The position numbers and the translations under genes were made by a program. This document shows positions 7,434 to 32,000 of a stretch of 64,000 nucleotides of DNA, piece by piece. This DNA is from Haladaptatus cibarius D43. Lineage in GTDB: Archaea > Halobacteriota > Halobacteria > Halobacteriales > Haladaptataceae. The stretch is from positions 736,082 through 800,081 of the forward strand of contig NZ_JDTH01000002.1 in NCBI RefSeq assembly GCF_000710615.1, read 5' to 3'. The notes below the pieces were generated by a model. That model did no database searches. It was not told the origin of the DNA and was given only the letters and a program-made list of their open reading frames with translations. How positions within the stretch are numbered: position 1 is the stretch's first letter; every line of letters begins with the position of its first letter.

Positions 7434-8387
7434 TCACCCGAACTCGGGCAGAACCTCTTCTTCGTAAAAGTCGAAAAACGACTCCTGATTCGGGCCGATT
7501 TGGTGGACGTAAACGTGGTCGTAGCCCGCGTCCACGAACTGTTGTAGGTTGTCGAGATGCGTCTCCGGGTCGGGGTCGGTGACGATGCTTCCCGCCGCGA
7601 TGTCCTCTCTGGTGACCATCTGGCAGGTCTGCTCGAAATGCGTCGGCGTGGACAGTTGGGCGGCGAGTTCGCCCGGAAGCGACGTATTCGGCCAGTTTTC
7701 CAGCGCCGTGTCGATTGCCTCCTCCTCGTCTTCGGCGTAGCAAACCGACATCTGGCTGTACTTCGGCCCGGAACCACCGGCTTCTTCGAACGTCTCGACC
7801 ACGTCTTGCGGGCCAACACTCCAGAAGCCGTCACTGATTTCGGCGGCTGATTTCGCCGCCCGAGGCCCGTAGGCCGAGACGACGATGTCCGGCGGTTCGT
7901 CGGGGAGGGTGTACAGACGCGCGTTTTCGACCGTAAAGTGGTCGCCGTGATAGCTCTGTTGTCCGCCCTGCCAGAGTTTCCGGATGATTTCGACCGCCTC
8001 TTCGAGCATGTCGAGTCGAATCGGATGTTCGGGCCAATGTTCGCCGGTGATGTGCTCGTTCAGTCGCTCGCCCGTCCCGACGCCGAGGAAGAACTTTCCC
8101 TCGAACATCGTGGCGGCGGTCGCGGCGGCCTGCGCCACGATTACCGGATGGATTCGCATAATTGGACACGTGACACCCACTCCTACCGGCAGGTCGTCGG
8201 TCGCAGTGGCAACACCGCCGAGAGTTGACCAAACGAACGGACTGTGGCCCTGCTGGCTAATCCACGGATGGAAGTGGTCAGAAATCGACGCGAAATCGAA
8301 CCCCACCGCTTCGGCGCGGGTGGCGTGTTCGACCAAGTCGTTCGGATGATGCTCCTCGCTCGACAGCGTGTAGCCGAGTTGCGTCAT
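7434..8387 (-). CDS. LLM-class F420-dependent oxidoreductase (G6PDH-like family)
   Basis: 317-residue flavin-superfamily TIM barrel. It begins [39 protein letters not shown], with the ISDHFHPW motif typical of the F420-dependent glucose-6-phosphate dehydrogenase-like branch. Next are [22 protein letters not shown], the cofactor-binding [13 protein letters not shown], and [19 protein letters not shown]. It should transfer hydride to or from coenzyme F420. True glucose-6-phosphate activity is not implied: many haloarchaeal members have no known substrate. It is a single gene, with ~110 bases separating it from the downstream end of the Gln-rich gene. Confidence 0.85.
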
Positions 8388-8499
8388 CGGCTTCCCTCCA
8401 CTGGTTCGAATTTCATAGCATCCACGCTACACCAGTCGTTCGCATGAACGCACTGGCTGAAAAAGCAAGGTCGAAATCGTACCGCACCTCCTCACGACT

Positions 8500-9147
8500 C
8501 TACTGCTGAGGCAGTTGGCGACCACGGCGTTGCTGTCGTCCCTGCTGTTCTTGCAGGCGCTCACCTTGATGTTCTTCGTATCTGTGTGACTGCTGGCCGT
8601 GCCCCTGCCGTTGTTGGTGTCCCTGCTGTTGTCCCTGTTGACGGCTCTGGCCGTGTTGGTGACCACTTTGACCCTGCTGTTGAGTTTCCTGTGAACCCTG
8701 CTGGCGACCGTACCGTTTTTGTCGTCCCTGCCGCCGTTGGTGGCGTTGCTGTTGGCTCTGTTGTTGTCCCTGTCGCTGCTGGCCATACCGGCGTTGCTGT
8801 CCTTGCTGCCGGAACTGTGATTTTCGCTGTCCCTGTTGCTGTTGTTGACCTTGCGGCCGTCGCTGTTGAGTTTGTTGTCCCTGCCGACCGTGTTCGGGTT
8901 GTTGTTGCCCGTGCTGACCGCCCTTCTGTATTTCCTGTTGTCTCTGCTCTTGACGACCGTATCGTCGCTGGTCGCCTCGCTGGTCGCCTCGCTGTCGCCC
9001 GTGCCTTCGTCGTTCTTGCCCGCCTCGTCTTTGTTCGTCCTGTCCTTGCTCCCTGCCCTGCTCACGCCGTCGCGGGCCACCGTATCGTTCCATTCCGGAT
9101 TTCTGCTCGTCACTGCGACGCGACTCGTCGTGCTGATGGTGTGTCAT
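8500..9147 (-). CDS. Gln/Arg/Gly-rich low-complexity basic protein (unrecognised)
   Basis: A 215-residue protein, about a third Gln, the rest mostly Arg, Gly, His and Ser. It has no Ala, Val, Asn, Cys or Trp and only a handful of hydrophobic residues apart from five Tyr. The Tyr recur as RYG motifs (RYGG, RYGR, RYGQ, RYGR, then RYEE). It is predicted to be wholly disordered and strongly basic, the opposite of the acidic haloarchaeal proteome. The ATG has a GGTGGGAG ribosome-binding sequence 7-14 bases upstream, and a TATA-like CTTAAG shared with hisC lies ~65 bases upstream, supporting expression. No family is recognised. By composition it could be a nucleic-acid-binding, phase-separating or spore-coat-like protein; this is inference. 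The same DNA is open in other frames too, so the coding claim needs proteomics. Confidence 0.6.
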   Translation of the reverse strand: MTHHQHDESRRSDEQKSGMERYGGPRRREQGREQGQDEQRRGGQERRRHGRQRGDQRGDQRRYGRQEQRQQEIQKGGQHGQQQPEHGRQGQQTQQRRPQGQQQQQGQRKSQFRQQGQQRRYGQQRQGQQQSQQQRHQRRQGRQKRYGRQQGSQETQQQGQSGHQHGQSRQQGQQQGHQQRQGHGQQSHRYEEHQGERLQEQQGRQQRRGRQLPQQ

Positions 9148-9207
9148 GATTCAACTCCCACCAAGGGAACACCGCAGATTTCCTTAGGCGTGTTGGCCTC
9201 AGGTGGC

Positions 9208-9220
9208 CATACTTAAGGCT
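9208..9220. promoter_or_regulatory. Shared divergent promoter of hisC and the Gln-rich gene
   Basis: CATACTTAAGGCT contains a palindromic CTTAAG TATA-like core. It lies ~27 bases before the hisC ATG, which fits a leaderless hisC transcript. Read on the other strand it is ~65 bases before the Gln-rich ATG, leaving a ~36-base leader that carries a ribosome-binding site. The 94-base gap has no other TATA-like element, so both genes may use the same one. Confidence 0.4.
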
Positions 9221-9241: not shown

Positions 9242-10315
9242 ATGGAACCACGAGACCTCTCCGCGCACGTCGCATATCAAGCCGGACGGGGCATCGAGGA
9301 GGTCGCTCGGGAACTCGGATTCGACCCGGACGACCTCGTGAAACTCGCGTCGAACGAGAACCCGTTCGGCCCGAGTCCGGCGGCAGTCGATGCCATCCGA
9401 AACGGGGCCGGAAACGCCAGTTCGTACCCGAAAGCGTCACACACCGACCTGACCGCTCAACTCGCCGAACGCTGGAACGTCGAACCGGCACAGGTCTGGT
9501 TGGCCAACGGCGGCGATGGCGCGCTGGATTATCTTTCCCGCGCCATGCTCGAACCCGGTGACGAAGTTCTCGTTCCGAGTCCCGGATTCGCCTATTACGG
9601 CATGAGCGCGCGGTACCACCACGGCGGGGTGTCGGAGTACTCCCTCTCGAAGGACGACGGATTCAAACTGGCCGCCGACGCGGTTCTCTCGGCCTACGAT
9701 GGCGAGCGAATCGTCTATCTCACGAGTCCGCACAACCCATCCGGCGGAATGTTCTCACTGGACGCCGTGGACACGATTGCGGACGAAACGGACGAGAAAA
9801 CCCTCGTCGTCGTGGACGAAGCATACGGAGAGTACGCCGAGGCATCGAGCGCAATCAGCCTGCTGGACGAGCGAGACGACGTGGCCGTCCTCAGAACCTT
9901 TTCGAAAGCGTTCGGGTTGGCGGGCGTCCGACTCGGCTACGCCGTCGTTCCGGACGACTGGGCGGACGCCTACGCCTGCGTGAACACGCCGTTCGCGGCG
10001 AGCGAACTGGCGTGTCGGGGTGGCCTCGCCGCACTGACTGACGATGAACACGTCGAGAAATCGGTCGAAACGGCGCGTTGGGCGCGCGAGTACATCTACG
10101 ACAATCTCGACGCCCCGACGTGGGAAAGCCACGGGAACTTCGTCCTCGCGGAGGTCGGAAACGCCAGCGAGGTCACGGAGGCGGTTCAAGAACGCGGCGT
10201 CATCCTCCGCGACTGCACGAGTTTCGGCCTCCCTGAATGCGTGCGAATCACCTGCGGAACGAAAGACGAAACCGAGCGAGCGGTTCAGGAACTCAACGAG
10301 GTGCTGACGGCGTGA
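9242..10315 (+). CDS. hisC: Histidinol-phosphate aminotransferase
   Basis: PLP-dependent fold-type I aminotransferase of histidine biosynthesis (imidazole acetol-phosphate to histidinol-phosphate). Diagnostic segments are KLASNENPFGPSP near residue 35, ANGGDGALDYLSRAML, SPHNPSGGMF with the PLP-contacting Asn, VVVDEAYGEY with Asp and Tyr, and the Schiff-base Lys in RTFSKAFGLAGVRLGYAVV. The C-terminus carries the substrate-phosphate Arg in ECVRITCGTKDET. At 357 residues it has standard length. The ATG at 9242 fits the TATA spacing. The stop overlaps the next gene's GTG by 4 bases, so hisC, the kinase and the CDP-alcohol transferase are one operon. Confidence 0.95.
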   Translation: MEPRDLSAHVAYQAGRGIEEVARELGFDPDDLVKLASNENPFGPSPAAVDAIRNGAGNASSYPKASHTDLTAQLAERWNVEPAQVWLANGGDGALDYLSRAMLEPGDEVLVPSPGFAYYGMSARYHHGGVSEYSLSKDDGFKLAADAVLSAYDGERIVYLTSPHNPSGGMFSLDAVDTIADETDEKTLVVVDEAYGEYAEASSAISLLDERDDVAVLRTFSKAFGLAGVRLGYAVVPDDWADAYACVNTPFAASELACRGGLAALTDDEHVEKSVETARWAREYIYDNLDAPTWESHGNFVLAEVGNASEVTEAVQERGVILRDCTSFGLPECVRITCGTKDETERAVQELNEVLTA

Positions 10316-27934: not shown

Positions 27935-28846
27935 TTACGACTTATTCGGGAGGAATGCCATACCGAGAAGGAGGATTGCAGCAAGCATACCGAGTATCAC
28001 GATTCCCCAAAATCCGGCGAATCGTTCCGTTTGGTGGCGAACATCGTCCAACTGTGTCTGATAGCCATCAACATCGCTCGACAGGACGAGCGTGCTGTTA
28101 TCGGGATAATGGACAGCGTACTGCTTTCCGTTCAACTCCGCTGTTCCTCCTGCCGGGAACTGGAACTTCTCGGGCGTTCCGCCGCGAACCAGCGTCGTTT
28201 TGATGGCGGTCGTTTCACCGAGGGAAACCGAGTTCGTTTTTGGCCCAGTCCATTGGAGCGTCATCGATTGATTCGTGATATTCTGAACAGTCGTGGAATT
28301 GTTCTGGTATTGGAACTGATTACCTTCTCGAAGTTCTTGCGTATCGGGTTGGTCGAACTGCTGGCGTTTGTACTCGTCAACTGGAACCAGTGACTTGTTG
28401 GTACTGGAATTGTCGCTCGTCTCGTTGACGACCACGTAGGTCACACCATTCTGCTTAACCGTCTGCGTGTCCTCGCTCAGGTTCTGGACTTCGCTGAGCG
28501 TTGCAGTCGTCGGGTTCGACTCGTTCGGGATGAGGACGCGATATGTTACGTTGTCGTTTGTTTGGAGGGTGGAGTTGTTCTCCAACGACGCGGAAAACAT
28601 CGCGGATTGATTCGTCCATGTCGCTTCAGCGGAGCGAACGAGTTCGCCGTCCTCGTTTACTGTTGCACTAATGTCAGAAATGTTGTACTCGCGATTATCA
28701 ACCGAGAACGTGTCTCCGGAGGTAGCACTATAGTCTGGGTTGTCTACCTCGGCCACAGGCTGTGCTGCAGTTGCGAGCATGATGTACGACCCTGTTACGA
28801 TCAGGAAAAAGAACGCCGCATACAGGGCGGCAGCGCGTCGTTGCAT
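27935..28846 (-). CDS. Surface protein with two membrane anchors and many glycosylation sites (unknown)
   Basis: 303 residues. A hydrophobic N-terminal segment (LYAAFFFLIVTGSYIMLATAA) and a C-terminal one (FAGFWGIVILGMLAAILLLGMAFL) flank ~245 residues rich in Asn, Ser, Thr and acidic residues, with many N-x-S/T sequons (NISD, NQS, NNST, NVT, NLS, NETS, NKS). Topology suggests a domain outside the cell held at both ends. Haloarchaeal homologues are likely, but I do not recognise a named family. Convergent with coaBC; its start borders the AT-rich island that follows. Confidence 0.65.
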   Translation of the reverse strand: MQRRAAALYAAFFFLIVTGSYIMLATAAQPVAEVDNPDYSATSGDTFSVDNREYNISDISATVNEDGELVRSAEATWTNQSAMFSASLENNSTLQTNDNVTYRVLIPNESNPTTATLSEVQNLSEDTQTVKQNGVTYVVVNETSDNSSTNKSLVPVDEYKRQQFDQPDTQELREGNQFQYQNNSTTVQNITNQSMTLQWTGPKTNSVSLGETTAIKTTLVRGGTPEKFQFPAGGTAELNGKQYAVHYPDNSTLVLSSDVDGYQTQLDDVRHQTERFAGFWGIVILGMLAAILLLGMAFLPNKS

Positions 28847-28916
28847 AGTTTTAGGTAAACCAGATATTCATAAAATAGTTACTATTCATCTTCCGAGAAA
28901 AATGGTTATTGTCTGT

Positions 28917-29281
28917 TTATATTGGTGTGCTAACTGGGCTAAGACCCGCAACGAAACACCAGCCATCCGGATCGTCGCCACTATCCCAGCTGACTTCGAT
29001 CATGTTCTCGTTGCTACCGGAATCATAGACTTCGCCAAAAATTGTCGTTCCGTAAGGCCGTTCACACCGTCAGTTGCACTTCCGAGGCAATTTGAACTTG
29101 CATCCGGCTGTACGAAAACCGAAACACGGTCGTCGCCATCACTATCAGTAACTCAGTGATCCTTGTGGAGCTGTACTGTTACATCAGATGCCGATGCACT
29201 CATCGTTGCAGCAAGGCCTGCAGTCGCAACCGCACTGGATTTGAGAATTTTTCGACGGGTCCTGTCGACTTCTTTTGCCAT
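28917..29281 (-). pseudogene. Broken small Tat-secreted protein
   Basis: The ATG at 29281 opens an intact Tat signal (MAKEVDRTRRKILKSS, Arg9-Arg10, then AVATAGLAATMSASAS). After ten more residues a TGA at 29155-29153 stops it. The same frame continues past the stop as a plausible mature domain (VTDSDGDDRVSVFVQPDASS). Near 29054 a one-base shift is needed to continue as YGTTIFGEVYDSGSNEN and EVSWDSGDDPDGWCF, ending at TAA 28919-28917. The missing base falls in a short T-run (CTT where CTTT would restore the frame). Both parts keep haloarchaeal acidic composition, so this is one gene broken twice, about 120 codons. It is either a true pseudogene or partly a sequencing artefact. Confidence 0.6.
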
Positions 29282-29419
29282 TGGTTTTGACACCGTCTAT
29301 ACATCCAGATCTTACCAATAAGTAATAACTAGTAATTGAATTATTTATTTTAACAACTAATATTTGATTTTTCTACTATTATGTGGAAATCTATTTAATA
29401 TAAAATAATATTTACTACT
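29282..29419. other. Strongly AT-rich gap
   Basis: Nearly all A and T over 29320-29419, unlike the GC-rich surroundings. It lies between the divergent broken Tat protein and the frameshifted regulator and would contain both promoters. It has repeated TAATATTT units and no gene. Confidence 0.5.
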
Positions 29420-30248
29420 ATGAATCTTAAGCCCTCCACCTGTTAATCGAGACTATCCCGAGACGGGGAAATATCTGTCACCAATCCTTGGCGAACCAAA
29501 ACAAAAGTCCGAATTAATTGAGCAGTTAGATGAGCCACGGTCAACCGTTGATCGGGGAATTCGGCAGTTGGTATCGAACGGTTTTGCGGAGCGTACTGCA
29601 AACGGCTATCGAAGCACTGCTTTTGGTCGATTAGTGTATCGAAATTTTATCGATACAATTACAATTTGTCAAGAGATGAAGCGGGCACAGATTATGATTG
29701 AACAAACTCAAAATGTCGCACTTGTAGACGATGCTCTCTTTCGGAATCCAGAATTCACATTTCCATCACAAAGCACACCTAACCAACCTCTCCGCCGACT
29801 ACACGAGAAATTTCTGGGAGCGTCGTGTATAAAGATACTCTCTCCCGCATTATTCGAAAATTCGGTAAACAAGTATCACGAGTATATAATCGACGAATCG
29901 ACCGAATTAGAGTTCGTGCTATCGAAAGACTGTATTCAAACTCTAATAGCGAAATATCCAGATAAATTACAAACTGCGGTGAATGCAGAGCAAGCAACGA
30001 TATTTCAGTCGCCTAGTAAACCACCGTTTGAATTAGTTATCAGTCAACACGACGCTCATCGGATGGTTGCGGTAGTGCTTCAAGGAGTCCATGGTATCTC
30101 GGGGTTACTTTTAGCAACGAATCGAAGTGCAATCGACTGGGGTATCCGATTCTATCAACAGTACAGGGGCAGGGGAAAGCACATACAACACACCCTGGCT
30201 CGTTTACCATCTACACAGCAACCGCAATTGGTTGGCCTCTCACAGTGA
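29420..30248 (+). pseudogene. FilR1-like (DUF1724-type) winged-helix regulator, frameshifted at the N-terminus
   Basis: The body (29568-30248 plus in-frame codons back to 29424) has a winged helix (PILGEPKQKSELIEQLDEPRSTVDRGIRQLVSNGFAERT) and a C-terminal FilR1-type domain (IKILSPALFENSVNKYHEYIIDESTELEFVL ... VAVVLQGVHGISGLLLATNRSAIDWGIRFYQQYR). In this frame there is no start codon before the winged helix, and a TGA lies at 29421-29423. ATG 29420 starts MNLKPST in another frame, and a middle segment (LLIETIPRR) lies in the third. Adding one base near 29440 and one near 29467, both in short homopolymers, would join them into one ~270-residue protein. A TTG at 29568 would give only a truncated product lacking most of the DNA-binding domain. 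Confidence 0.65.
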
Positions 30249-30554
30249 GTGTCCACCGAAACCCCGGTTGTTCGGTCAAAAGACAGAAAGACAGAATTAT
30301 GTAAATAATCCCATATTTATAATAGAATTTCCTACGGATGAATTATCATATTCTAATACATGGATATAGACAGCCATATCTTTATTAGGTAGGAGTATCA
30401 AAGCCTGTTATAACGCGCTTACCATCCGAAGAAAGCGAATTGAACCGGGGGCGGAAATCTGCTAAATTCGACATTAGAATTTACCTGTCGAGATATTTAG
30501 CATGTACGTTTGTCCTCAGTGATGAAAACGCGCGTCGCAGGAGAACACAAACAT
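30249..30554. other. AT-rich promoter region of the pilin gene
   Basis: 306 bases without a gene. The left part is AT-rich (CCCATATTTATAATAG near 30310). GAGATATTTAGC at 30489-30500 is a good TATA-like element for the downstream pilin, with a GGAG ribosome-binding sequence near 30540. Confidence 0.45.
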
Positions 30555-30983
30555 ATGACACTCAAAGAAAAATTCAACGAATTCAGGTCTGAAACAAGAT
30601 TAGTTTCGCCAGTTATTGGTGTAATTTTAATGGTTGCTATCACTGTAATATTGGCCGCCGTGATAGGGACGTTCGTGATGGGTCTTGGTGACAGCGTTCA
30701 AAGCAACGTTCAGGCAGGTGTGAGCGTCGATGCAAATGCACAAGATGATACGATTGACGTAACGTTTACTTCGGAACAGCAGGAAGGAACAAATTTGAAT
30801 GTTTCTGCTACCATTGTTGGTACTAGTACTGATGAATCCGATGACTTAGACTCAATCGGTCAGTCGCGAACATTCACCGATGTCGATGGAACTTCGATTG
30901 ACGGTGAAAGCGTCAAGGTTGTCGTGACCGCTGAGGCAGACGGTCGTTCAACCGTTATCTACTCCGAAACGCACGACTTATAA
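30555..30983 (+). CDS. Type IV pilin (archaeal PilA-like)
   Basis: 142 residues. The short N-terminal leader [16 protein letters not shown] is followed by the conserved pilin helix [24 protein letters not shown], the hallmark of haloarchaeal type IV pilins processed by a prepilin peptidase such as PibD. The rest is a Ser/Thr/Asp-rich beta domain. I chose ATG 30555 because its leader resembles Haloferax PilA leaders (MNLKE...) and a GGAG site precedes it; ATG 30522 is an alternative that would fit a leaderless transcript. No assembly gene is adjacent; a PilB/PilC pair lies 25 kb away. Flanked by two broken genes. Confidence 0.87.
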
Positions 30984-30997
30984 ACGGGGTCGGTTAT

Positions 30998-32000
30998 CTA
31001 CGTTTTCTTTTTCAATGTACTGCTTTCCCACACATAGTGGCAAGACCGACACAATGAAATCAAATTCTTCAATTGATTTGCTTTCTTGTAGCTATCGAAC
31101 TTTCTCCTCTTTTTCAGATGATGCACATGTAATCCTTCACCAATTGCTTCTCGCTGTTCATCATCTGAAATCCCGCAATCTTGGCAAACGTATCTATCAC
31201 GCTCTAATGCGAGTTCGCGCTGTTCCGGCCAATTCGGCCCGTAGTCAATTGCACCATCTAAAACACCGTGCGCCTTGTTGATTGCAAGGTTTGAGGCCCG
31301 AAGTGCATCGTTCCACGAACCAAACGCTCGAAGATAGGGCCAAATAGAAAATTGCCCATGTTCCGTTAGTTCCATCCATGTTGGTGTTTTTCCAAGCGAA
31401 CCTGTCAATCTCTGCAATTCCTCTATAAGTTCCTCCTTGGGGATCCCAAGCTCGTGCTCTGGGTCAATGCCAGCTGATACGAGTGCCTCCTCCCAGGAAT
31501 TGAACTCCCGATAGTACGGTTGATGTGAGTACCGACCGTGTTCGCACATATCCTCTTGAGAAGGCGTTTTTCCCAATTTACTCTCCAACTCAACTAGTGC
31601 TTCAACCAGTTCGTCACGCGAAATCCTCCGGCTGGTCGTCGTTTTCGGATCAAGCCCTGCGGCCTCCTTCGCCTCCGGCCACGAACCGAACTGGCGGAAG
31701 TATGAATGAGCCGAATACTCTCCGTGTTCGTTCATTTCCTCGAACTTTGGCGGACGACCCAGTTCCTCAGCGAACTCTCGGAGCGCGCGAATTAGCTCCT
31801 CGTTCGAGATTCCGTTCTCGTGGTTCGTTTCGAACCCTGAGGCCTGCAGTGTCATTCCACGACCCAAATCGGTTGTAGTACGGCGTCGAAGAATGTGGCC
31901 CACGGTCGTTCATTGCGGTTTGTGTCGGCACCTCACCCAACTTCTCTGCAAACGCTTGCAAATCCGAAATCAACTGGTCGGCGGACAGTTTGCTCACCAT
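30998..32000 (-). pseudogene. HNH endonuclease with four homing-endonuclease-associated repeats, frameshifted
   Basis: Reads as one gene if a frameshift near 31850 is repaired. The N-terminal piece starts MVSKLSADQL at 32000; the remainder runs to 30998. There are four ~55-residue repeats, each with LGxxPTxxxMxxxGxYSxxPYxRxFGSWxxAL (the first broken by the shift right after FGSWND). Then comes an HNH nuclease: YVCQDCG, HVHHLKK, and NLISLCRSCH, with two CxxC metal pairs and the catalytic HH. Repeats of this type are thought to bind DNA. No intein or intron host is visible, so it is a free-standing nuclease. Repeats 2-4 plus HNH are intact and could still be made from a downstream start. Confidence 0.72.

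Follow-up and report, generated by a model that had tools for sequence, protein, structure and literature searches.

Introduction

Conserved Tyr-Arg-Gly motifs in a net-positive Gln/Gly chain are the pattern of sticker-and-spacer scaffolds such as the FUS-type proteins. The RG/RGG and Tyr/Arg sticker-spacer domains of these proteins are disordered and rich in Gln and Gly, place Tyr regularly beside Arg and Gly, and conserve composition and motifs more than sequence. Gln-rich low-complexity regions reach high per-residue occupancy in eukaryotes only (PMC11132505). Hydrophilins are recognized by two sequence criteria, a Gly content above 6% and a hydrophilicity index above 1.0 (PMC11277543), and the Hpn-like protein (Hpnl) of Helicobacter pylori is a Q/H-rich nickel-binding protein that starts MAHHEQQQQQQA and bears an ATCUN motif there, the motif being used here as defined in that work (PMC8704837).

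Here we describe a gene with points of likeness to all three, in a window of 64,000 nucleotides from Haladaptatus cibarius D43 (contig NZ_JDTH01000002.1, positions 736,082 to 800,081). Like the FUS-type domains, its product is predicted to be disordered, is Gln/Gly-rich with regular Tyr beside Arg and Gly, and has relatives that conserve composition and motifs more than sequence. Unlike them, it is not attached to any folded RNA-binding domain, contains far more Arg and Gln, far fewer Tyr and a single RGG, is 30% charged and comes from an archaeon of the salt-in type; no sequence homology to them was found. It lies above both hydrophilin thresholds and is disordered by composition, but it is basic and Arg/Gln-dominated and has conserved Tyr motifs. 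With Hpnl it shares Gln-richness and His at positions 3 and 4 (M-T-H-H, against M-A-H-H in Hpnl), whereas it is Arg/Gly-rich with RYG motifs and Hpnl is about three times shorter; homology is not claimed.

Searches of Pfam, NCBIfam and PDB sequences gave no match to the protein, Pfam yielded nothing credible for the C-terminal motif of its relatives, and a literature search found no paper on this protein. As far as family libraries and literature searches show, this is a new, undescribed protein family; it is of a known general kind, the low-complexity disordered protein, in an unusual setting. The earlier note on this DNA had proposed an undescribed system. The first word stands, whereas "system" proved too strong, since only the position beside hisC is universal and no functionally suggestive partner is invariant.

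A basic Gln-rich protein among acidic ones

The product of the gene contains 76 Gln (35.3%), 41 Arg, 34 Gly, 15 Glu and 13 His, with 9 Ser, 5 Asp, 5 Tyr and 4 Lys as minor residues; Ala, Val, Asn, Cys and Trp are absent from all 215 positions. Its net charge is +25, in a window whose 54 non-overlapping ORFs have a median charge of -0.065 per residue. The earlier description of a protein of this length, about one third Gln, lacking those five residues and basic where others are acidic, is thus confirmed by residue count. Gly makes up 15.8%, GRAVY is -2.77, and each residue holds about 2.07 nitrogen atoms (1.8 in two sister-genus proteins). On a charge-hydropathy plot the protein lies deep in the disordered zone (hydropathy 0.193, boundary 0.455), and from this composition it is probably disordered in the cell. 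A single-sequence AlphaFold2 model, built without an alignment, placed long Q/R helices at residues 29-76 and 103-150 with moderate confidence (mean pLDDT 64, pTM 0.25); we give this model no weight for or against disorder. GC3, at 0.52, is below the window's median (0.74) and so gives no hint that the gene is highly expressed.

The five Tyr, together with two other aromatic or large hydrophobic positions, are all that the 215 residues hold of this kind. Residue shuffling predicts 0.15 RYG motifs; four were observed, and none of 20,000 shuffles reached four. The four RYG and the RYEE recorded in the earlier note were found again at the positions listed in Table 1. RGG occurs once (residue 41) and RG four times, and the closely spaced RGG repeats of an RGG/RG box are lacking. 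Nor does the protein resemble a prion-like domain, Q/N-rich with few charges, as it is 30% charged and has no Asn. The His at position 3 is kept with or without removal of Met (M-T-H or T-H-H), and the N-terminal MTHHxH could in principle form an ATCUN-type Cu/Ni site.

Table 1. Features of the Q-rich locus, in window coordinates
Feature	Position	Strand	Remarks
TIGR03557 F420-dependent LLM-class oxidoreductase	7434..8387	minus	432 bits; directly downstream neighbour in Haladaptatus
Conserved non-coding 57-nt block	8414..8470	minus	T-run, TCAGCCAG...TGTAGCG...CATG; nine-species Haladaptatus alignment
Q/R/G-rich basic protein CDS	8500..9147	minus	ATG at 9147, stop 8502-8500, 215 aa
C-terminal block EHQGERLQEQQGRQQ	8530..8574	minus	residues 192-206; alignment; common to four other Haladaptatus species
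RYE, within RYEE	8575..8583	minus	residues 189-191; fifth Tyr, Arg before it too
RYG motif 4 (KRYGRQ)	8707..8715	minus	residues 145-147
RYG motif 3 (RRYGQQ)	8782..8790	minus	residues 120-122
RYG motif 2 (RRYGRQ)	8956..8964	minus	residues 62-64
First RYG, in RYGGPR	9070..9087	minus	residues 21-26; invariant in 9/9 Haladaptatus
N-terminal MTHHQH	9130..9147	minus	MTHHxH invariant in 9/9 Haladaptatus (column table)
SD-like GGGAG	9155..9159	minus	7-8 nt before ATG
CTTAAG, TATA-like palindrome between divergent genes	9212..9217	unassigned	present in all nine Haladaptatus
hisC (histidinol-phosphate transaminase)	9242..10315	plus	TIGR01141, 340.8 bits; divergent neighbour

Selection acts on the annotated frame

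In seven pairs of Haladaptatus orthologues, the annotated frame had dN/dS of 0.17-0.26 with dS of 0.45-2.4. For the two other frames of the same strand the ratio exceeded 1 in all pairs (1.3 to 2.5), and for rc0 and rc2 on the opposite strand it was 0.67 to 2.0. Antisense frame rc1 had a low ratio (0.22-0.34), because its third positions face those of the annotated frame, yet it is broken by 5-16 stops and was rejected as coding. Second codon positions are A or G at 198 of 216 codons, which is why several overlapping frames remain open; those at 8427-9113 (minus), 8586-9149 (plus) and 8836-9216 (plus) are by-products of CAR, CGN and GGN codons, and none of them is conserved at the protein level. 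Gln is written with both of its codons and Arg with up to six, so the gene is not a trinucleotide expansion, and the high dS speaks against the DNA or RNA as such being what is constrained. By these substitution patterns, the frame is under purifying selection that acts on the protein, and 8500-9147 is a real protein-coding gene. Conservation of another frame in its place had been named beforehand as grounds for dropping the gene; the comparison favored the annotated one.

Orthologues throughout Haladaptatus

A direct protein search of 99 relatives recovered one orthologue, 82% identical, in H. litoreus (NZ_FTNO01000001.1), and a contig scan did likewise. This apparent absence was misleading: the remaining relatives had been hidden by composition filters and were recovered through synteny with hisC. 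An orthologue is present in all nine Haladaptatus genomes, between the divergent hisC and the TIGR03557 oxidoreductase, and is intact in eight (119-225 aa, the shortest in G008). In G001 (L022) the frame shifts after about 26 residues, with the remainder readable in another frame, either through mutation or through an assembly error. The broken frame of G001 and the short protein of G008 mean that a full-length copy may be dispensable, and low GC3 together with the broken copy counsels caution against presuming high abundance or essentiality.

Overall identity among the orthologues drops to about 34%. Of the first 26 residues, those of MTHH, His6 and RYGGPR are identical in all nine species, and nearly all positions between them vary. 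A DNA pattern for this N-terminus (MTHH...YGGP) matched 9/9 Haladaptatus genomes and 0/383 other genomes of the order. It also matched two viral contigs, which on reading held unrelated sequence, and a viral origin was discarded. Of the eight intact orthologues, seven have exactly four RYG and the shortest has three. In the genus, 37 of 43 Tyr stand in the context [RKQN]Y[GS], where 4.3 would be expected by shuffling and the highest of 1000 shuffles gave 12. Of the question raised earlier, whether orthologues keep frame and RYG spacing, the first part is answered in the affirmative, with eight of nine in frame; RYG number and context are kept as well.

Neighbours and intergenic elements

hisC is the only neighbour kept at the Q-rich locus in every Haladaptataceae genome examined. 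The two genes are directly adjacent in Haladaptatus and in a large sister genus; in the one genome of a third genus (G010) the oxidoreductase gene comes between them, upstream of the Q-rich gene. Between the Q-rich gene and the oxidoreductase, most genomes of the large sister genus (L054-L070) have a fused NuoC/NuoD-like (NuoCD-like) gene of about 558 aa. No neighbour points to a pathway or function.

The ribosome-binding site noticed previously was seen before the start codon; a GGAG/GAGG-like stretch precedes most orthologues, though not all, and none was seen in G001. The palindrome CTTAAG is 24 nt away from the start codon of hisC and 64 nt away from that of the Q-rich gene; a promoter role is plausible, at a distance right for leaderless hisC. 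The conserved 57-nt block, in the spacer between the Q-rich and oxidoreductase genes, had no match in Rfam and may be a terminator of the former and/or a promoter of the latter, or a small RNA. Elsewhere in the window, 28500-32000 has a GC content of 42-50%, against about 59% around it, and is a possible foreign island.

A family-wide gene with short conserved motifs

A hisC-linked Q-rich counterpart was found in all 28 family genomes sampled, including 19/19 in two sister genera (18 genomes of one genus and the single genome G010 of the other), which by NCBI taxonomy we infer to be Halorussus and Halomicrococcus. The large genus supplied 17 complete proteins and one cut by the locus end. Outside the family, no Q-rich ORF was found upstream of hisC at any of 27 loci, two of which have less than 1 kb upstream. 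Judged from these samples, the gene is both family-wide and specific to the Haladaptataceae.

The sister-genera proteins are Q/G/R/H/S-rich, 194-429 aa long and always net basic. RYxxGGR or RYVGGH occurs near the start of 17 of the 18 complete ones, L058 being the exception, and RYSSGGR/RYSAGGR is the sister-genus counterpart of RYGGPR. Tyr again stands mostly in [RKQN]Y[GS] (64/108; expected 13.5, maximum 26 in 1000 shuffles). The 26 intact proteins all carry a net positive charge, which ranges from +2 to +37; two sister-genus relatives are almost without excess charge (+2, +3). Gly is 7.7-24% in every intact relative over lengths of 119-429 aa. His makes up 6% of the window protein (13 scattered residues, longest run two) and at most 11% in the sister genus; runs of nine His were seen in L054, L055 and L068 only.

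Of the 17 proteins from the large sister genus that are complete, 16 carry NQYGGSSESGFSPVQQTMMRG or a close variant near the C-terminus (GFSPVQQTMMRG is a segment of one sister-genus protein). A profile from that genus alone found the same segment as the sole match in six frames of G002, G007 and G010; it was seen in L018, L020, L021, most sister-genus proteins and partly G010, with a diverged form (LSDVERTVIRGG) in Haladaptatus G003 and G004. It was not found in the window protein, H. litoreus or G008. By this distribution the window species has lost the motif, and the membership of its protein in the family rests on orthology at the locus, the C-terminal segment being absent. Homology across genera is argued from place and short motifs, not from full-length alignment. 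In this family, sequence and length evolve fast, with place, composition, sign of charge and short Tyr motifs remaining stable.

We considered SPVQQTxM as a widespread haloarchaeal motif, but pattern and profile searches place it essentially only in the Haladaptataceae Q-rich family. Acidic disordered proteins of another haloarchaeal family (L087, 1408-1725, plus; L088, 1414-1701, plus) contain a short stretch, QNQYGG...AVEQTEMR, like the sister-genus C-terminal motif (E about 5e-4), and an ORF neighbouring them (L088, 972-1289, plus) has SPVEQTMM. These proteins, in contrast to the Q-rich family, are acidic, about 100 aa long and encoded at another locus, near DUF2243-like and Mn-catalase-like genes (by eye); only some of their relatives keep the motif. 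The likeness is probably convergent or very distant.

Possible functions

Our leading reading, held tentatively, is that the protein acts as a multivalent sticker-and-spacer scaffold built on Tyr and Arg, able to associate with itself and to bind RNA or DNA. Tyr fixed in R-Y-G and N-Q-Y-G contexts, with the many Arg, would be the stickers, and Gln/Gly/Ser/His tracts the flexible spacers. The net positive charge would let the protein cover or collect RNA or DNA, or else acidic proteins, in the KCl-rich cytoplasm, with Arg contacting the nucleic acid and cation-pi and hydrogen bonds outlasting charge screening at high salt. The C-terminal NQYGGSSESGFSPVQQTMMRG of most relatives, lost in the window species, could supply a specific partner site. 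RYG number and Tyr context exceed shuffled expectation by far in two genera and are kept across species, as this reading would predict; disorder in the cell, self-association, nucleic-acid binding and salt tolerance are the parts that we infer. Against a scaffold, sticker density is low, the protein lacks the RGG spacing that RNA-binding RG domains typically show, two relatives are weakly charged, and one Haladaptatus copy is broken and another short. As far as tested, hydrophilin-like and metal-binding readings would fit the sequence about as well.

A hydrophilin/LEA-like protectant, a Gly-rich, extremely hydrophilic disordered shield for proteins or membranes when cells dry out or salinity fluctuates, with RYG as a secondary feature, is a rather unlikely alternative that agrees with the Gly content and hydrophilicity of the window protein, with the Gly-richness of every intact relative, and with fast sequence turnover at kept composition and variable length. 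It leaves unexplained why RYG are kept in number and context, and why RYGGPR and the SPVQQTMMRG segment persist, and the protein is Arg-rich and basic rather than Lys/Glu-rich, with no known hydrophilin or LEA model matched in Pfam or NCBIfam, or in Pfam for the C-terminal motif. We consider it unlikely that the protein is an Hpn-like binder or store of metal, in which MTHHxH would form an ATCUN Cu/Ni site and scattered His and Gln tracts would bind more ions. MTHHxH is invariant in the genus with most of the next 14 residues variable, Hpnl has its ATCUN motif at the same place (PMC8704837), and His is frequent here and more so in the sister genus, with nine-His runs in three species. Yet His3 occurs in only 2 of 18 sister-genera proteins and none of them starts MTHH, so metal binding cannot be the family-wide function and would be limited to Haladaptatus. 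His (CAY) is, moreover, one mutation from Gln (CAR), and scattered His is therefore partly expected in such a gene. The ATCUN His3 of Hpn-like proteins is found in Haladaptatus, but the dense His-rich region is not, such clusters being confined to the three sister-genus species; no metal-transport genes lie near the Q-rich gene; and urease-alpha PF00449 gave only partial matches of 21-27 bits in 12 of 28 family genomes, so that nickel storage for urease was set aside, its clearest client missing without a convincing urease in the family. A combination, in which a family-wide condensate scaffold in multimolar KCl is made metal-responsive by the N-terminal Cu/Ni His cluster of Haladaptatus, strikes us as improbable.

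That the gene has low or no importance, a low-complexity ORF born beside hisC in the family ancestor and held by weak constraint against toxicity or mis-folding, we judge quite unlikely. Its restriction to the Haladaptataceae, the broken frame in one species, low GC3 and the loss of the C-terminal motif in the window species, H. litoreus and G008 are in keeping with such a history; its retention in 28/28 family genomes, dN/dS of about 0.2, invariant N-terminal residues and an RYG count far above chance are not. There is very little to recommend a nitrogen-rich reserve protein of Gln, Arg and His, co-regulated with hisC: the nitrogen content is high, and across the family the gene diverges from a histidine-biosynthesis gene with an intergenic region in common, but a reserve has no need of conserved RYG, MTHHxH or SPVQQTMMRG, low GC3 does not point to mass production, and in the third genus the oxidoreductase gene separates the Q-rich gene from hisC.

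If the sticker-and-spacer reading is true, the family would offer a natural, genetically accessible test of how disordered proteins condense in molar salt, under conditions that screen simple charge attraction. It would then also be a rare example, beyond the eukaryotes, of a scaffold that is both basic and rich in Gln. Even if the protein is a protectant or metal binder, the family illustrates that low-complexity proteins left unlinked by similarity search can be traced across genera by synteny and short motifs.
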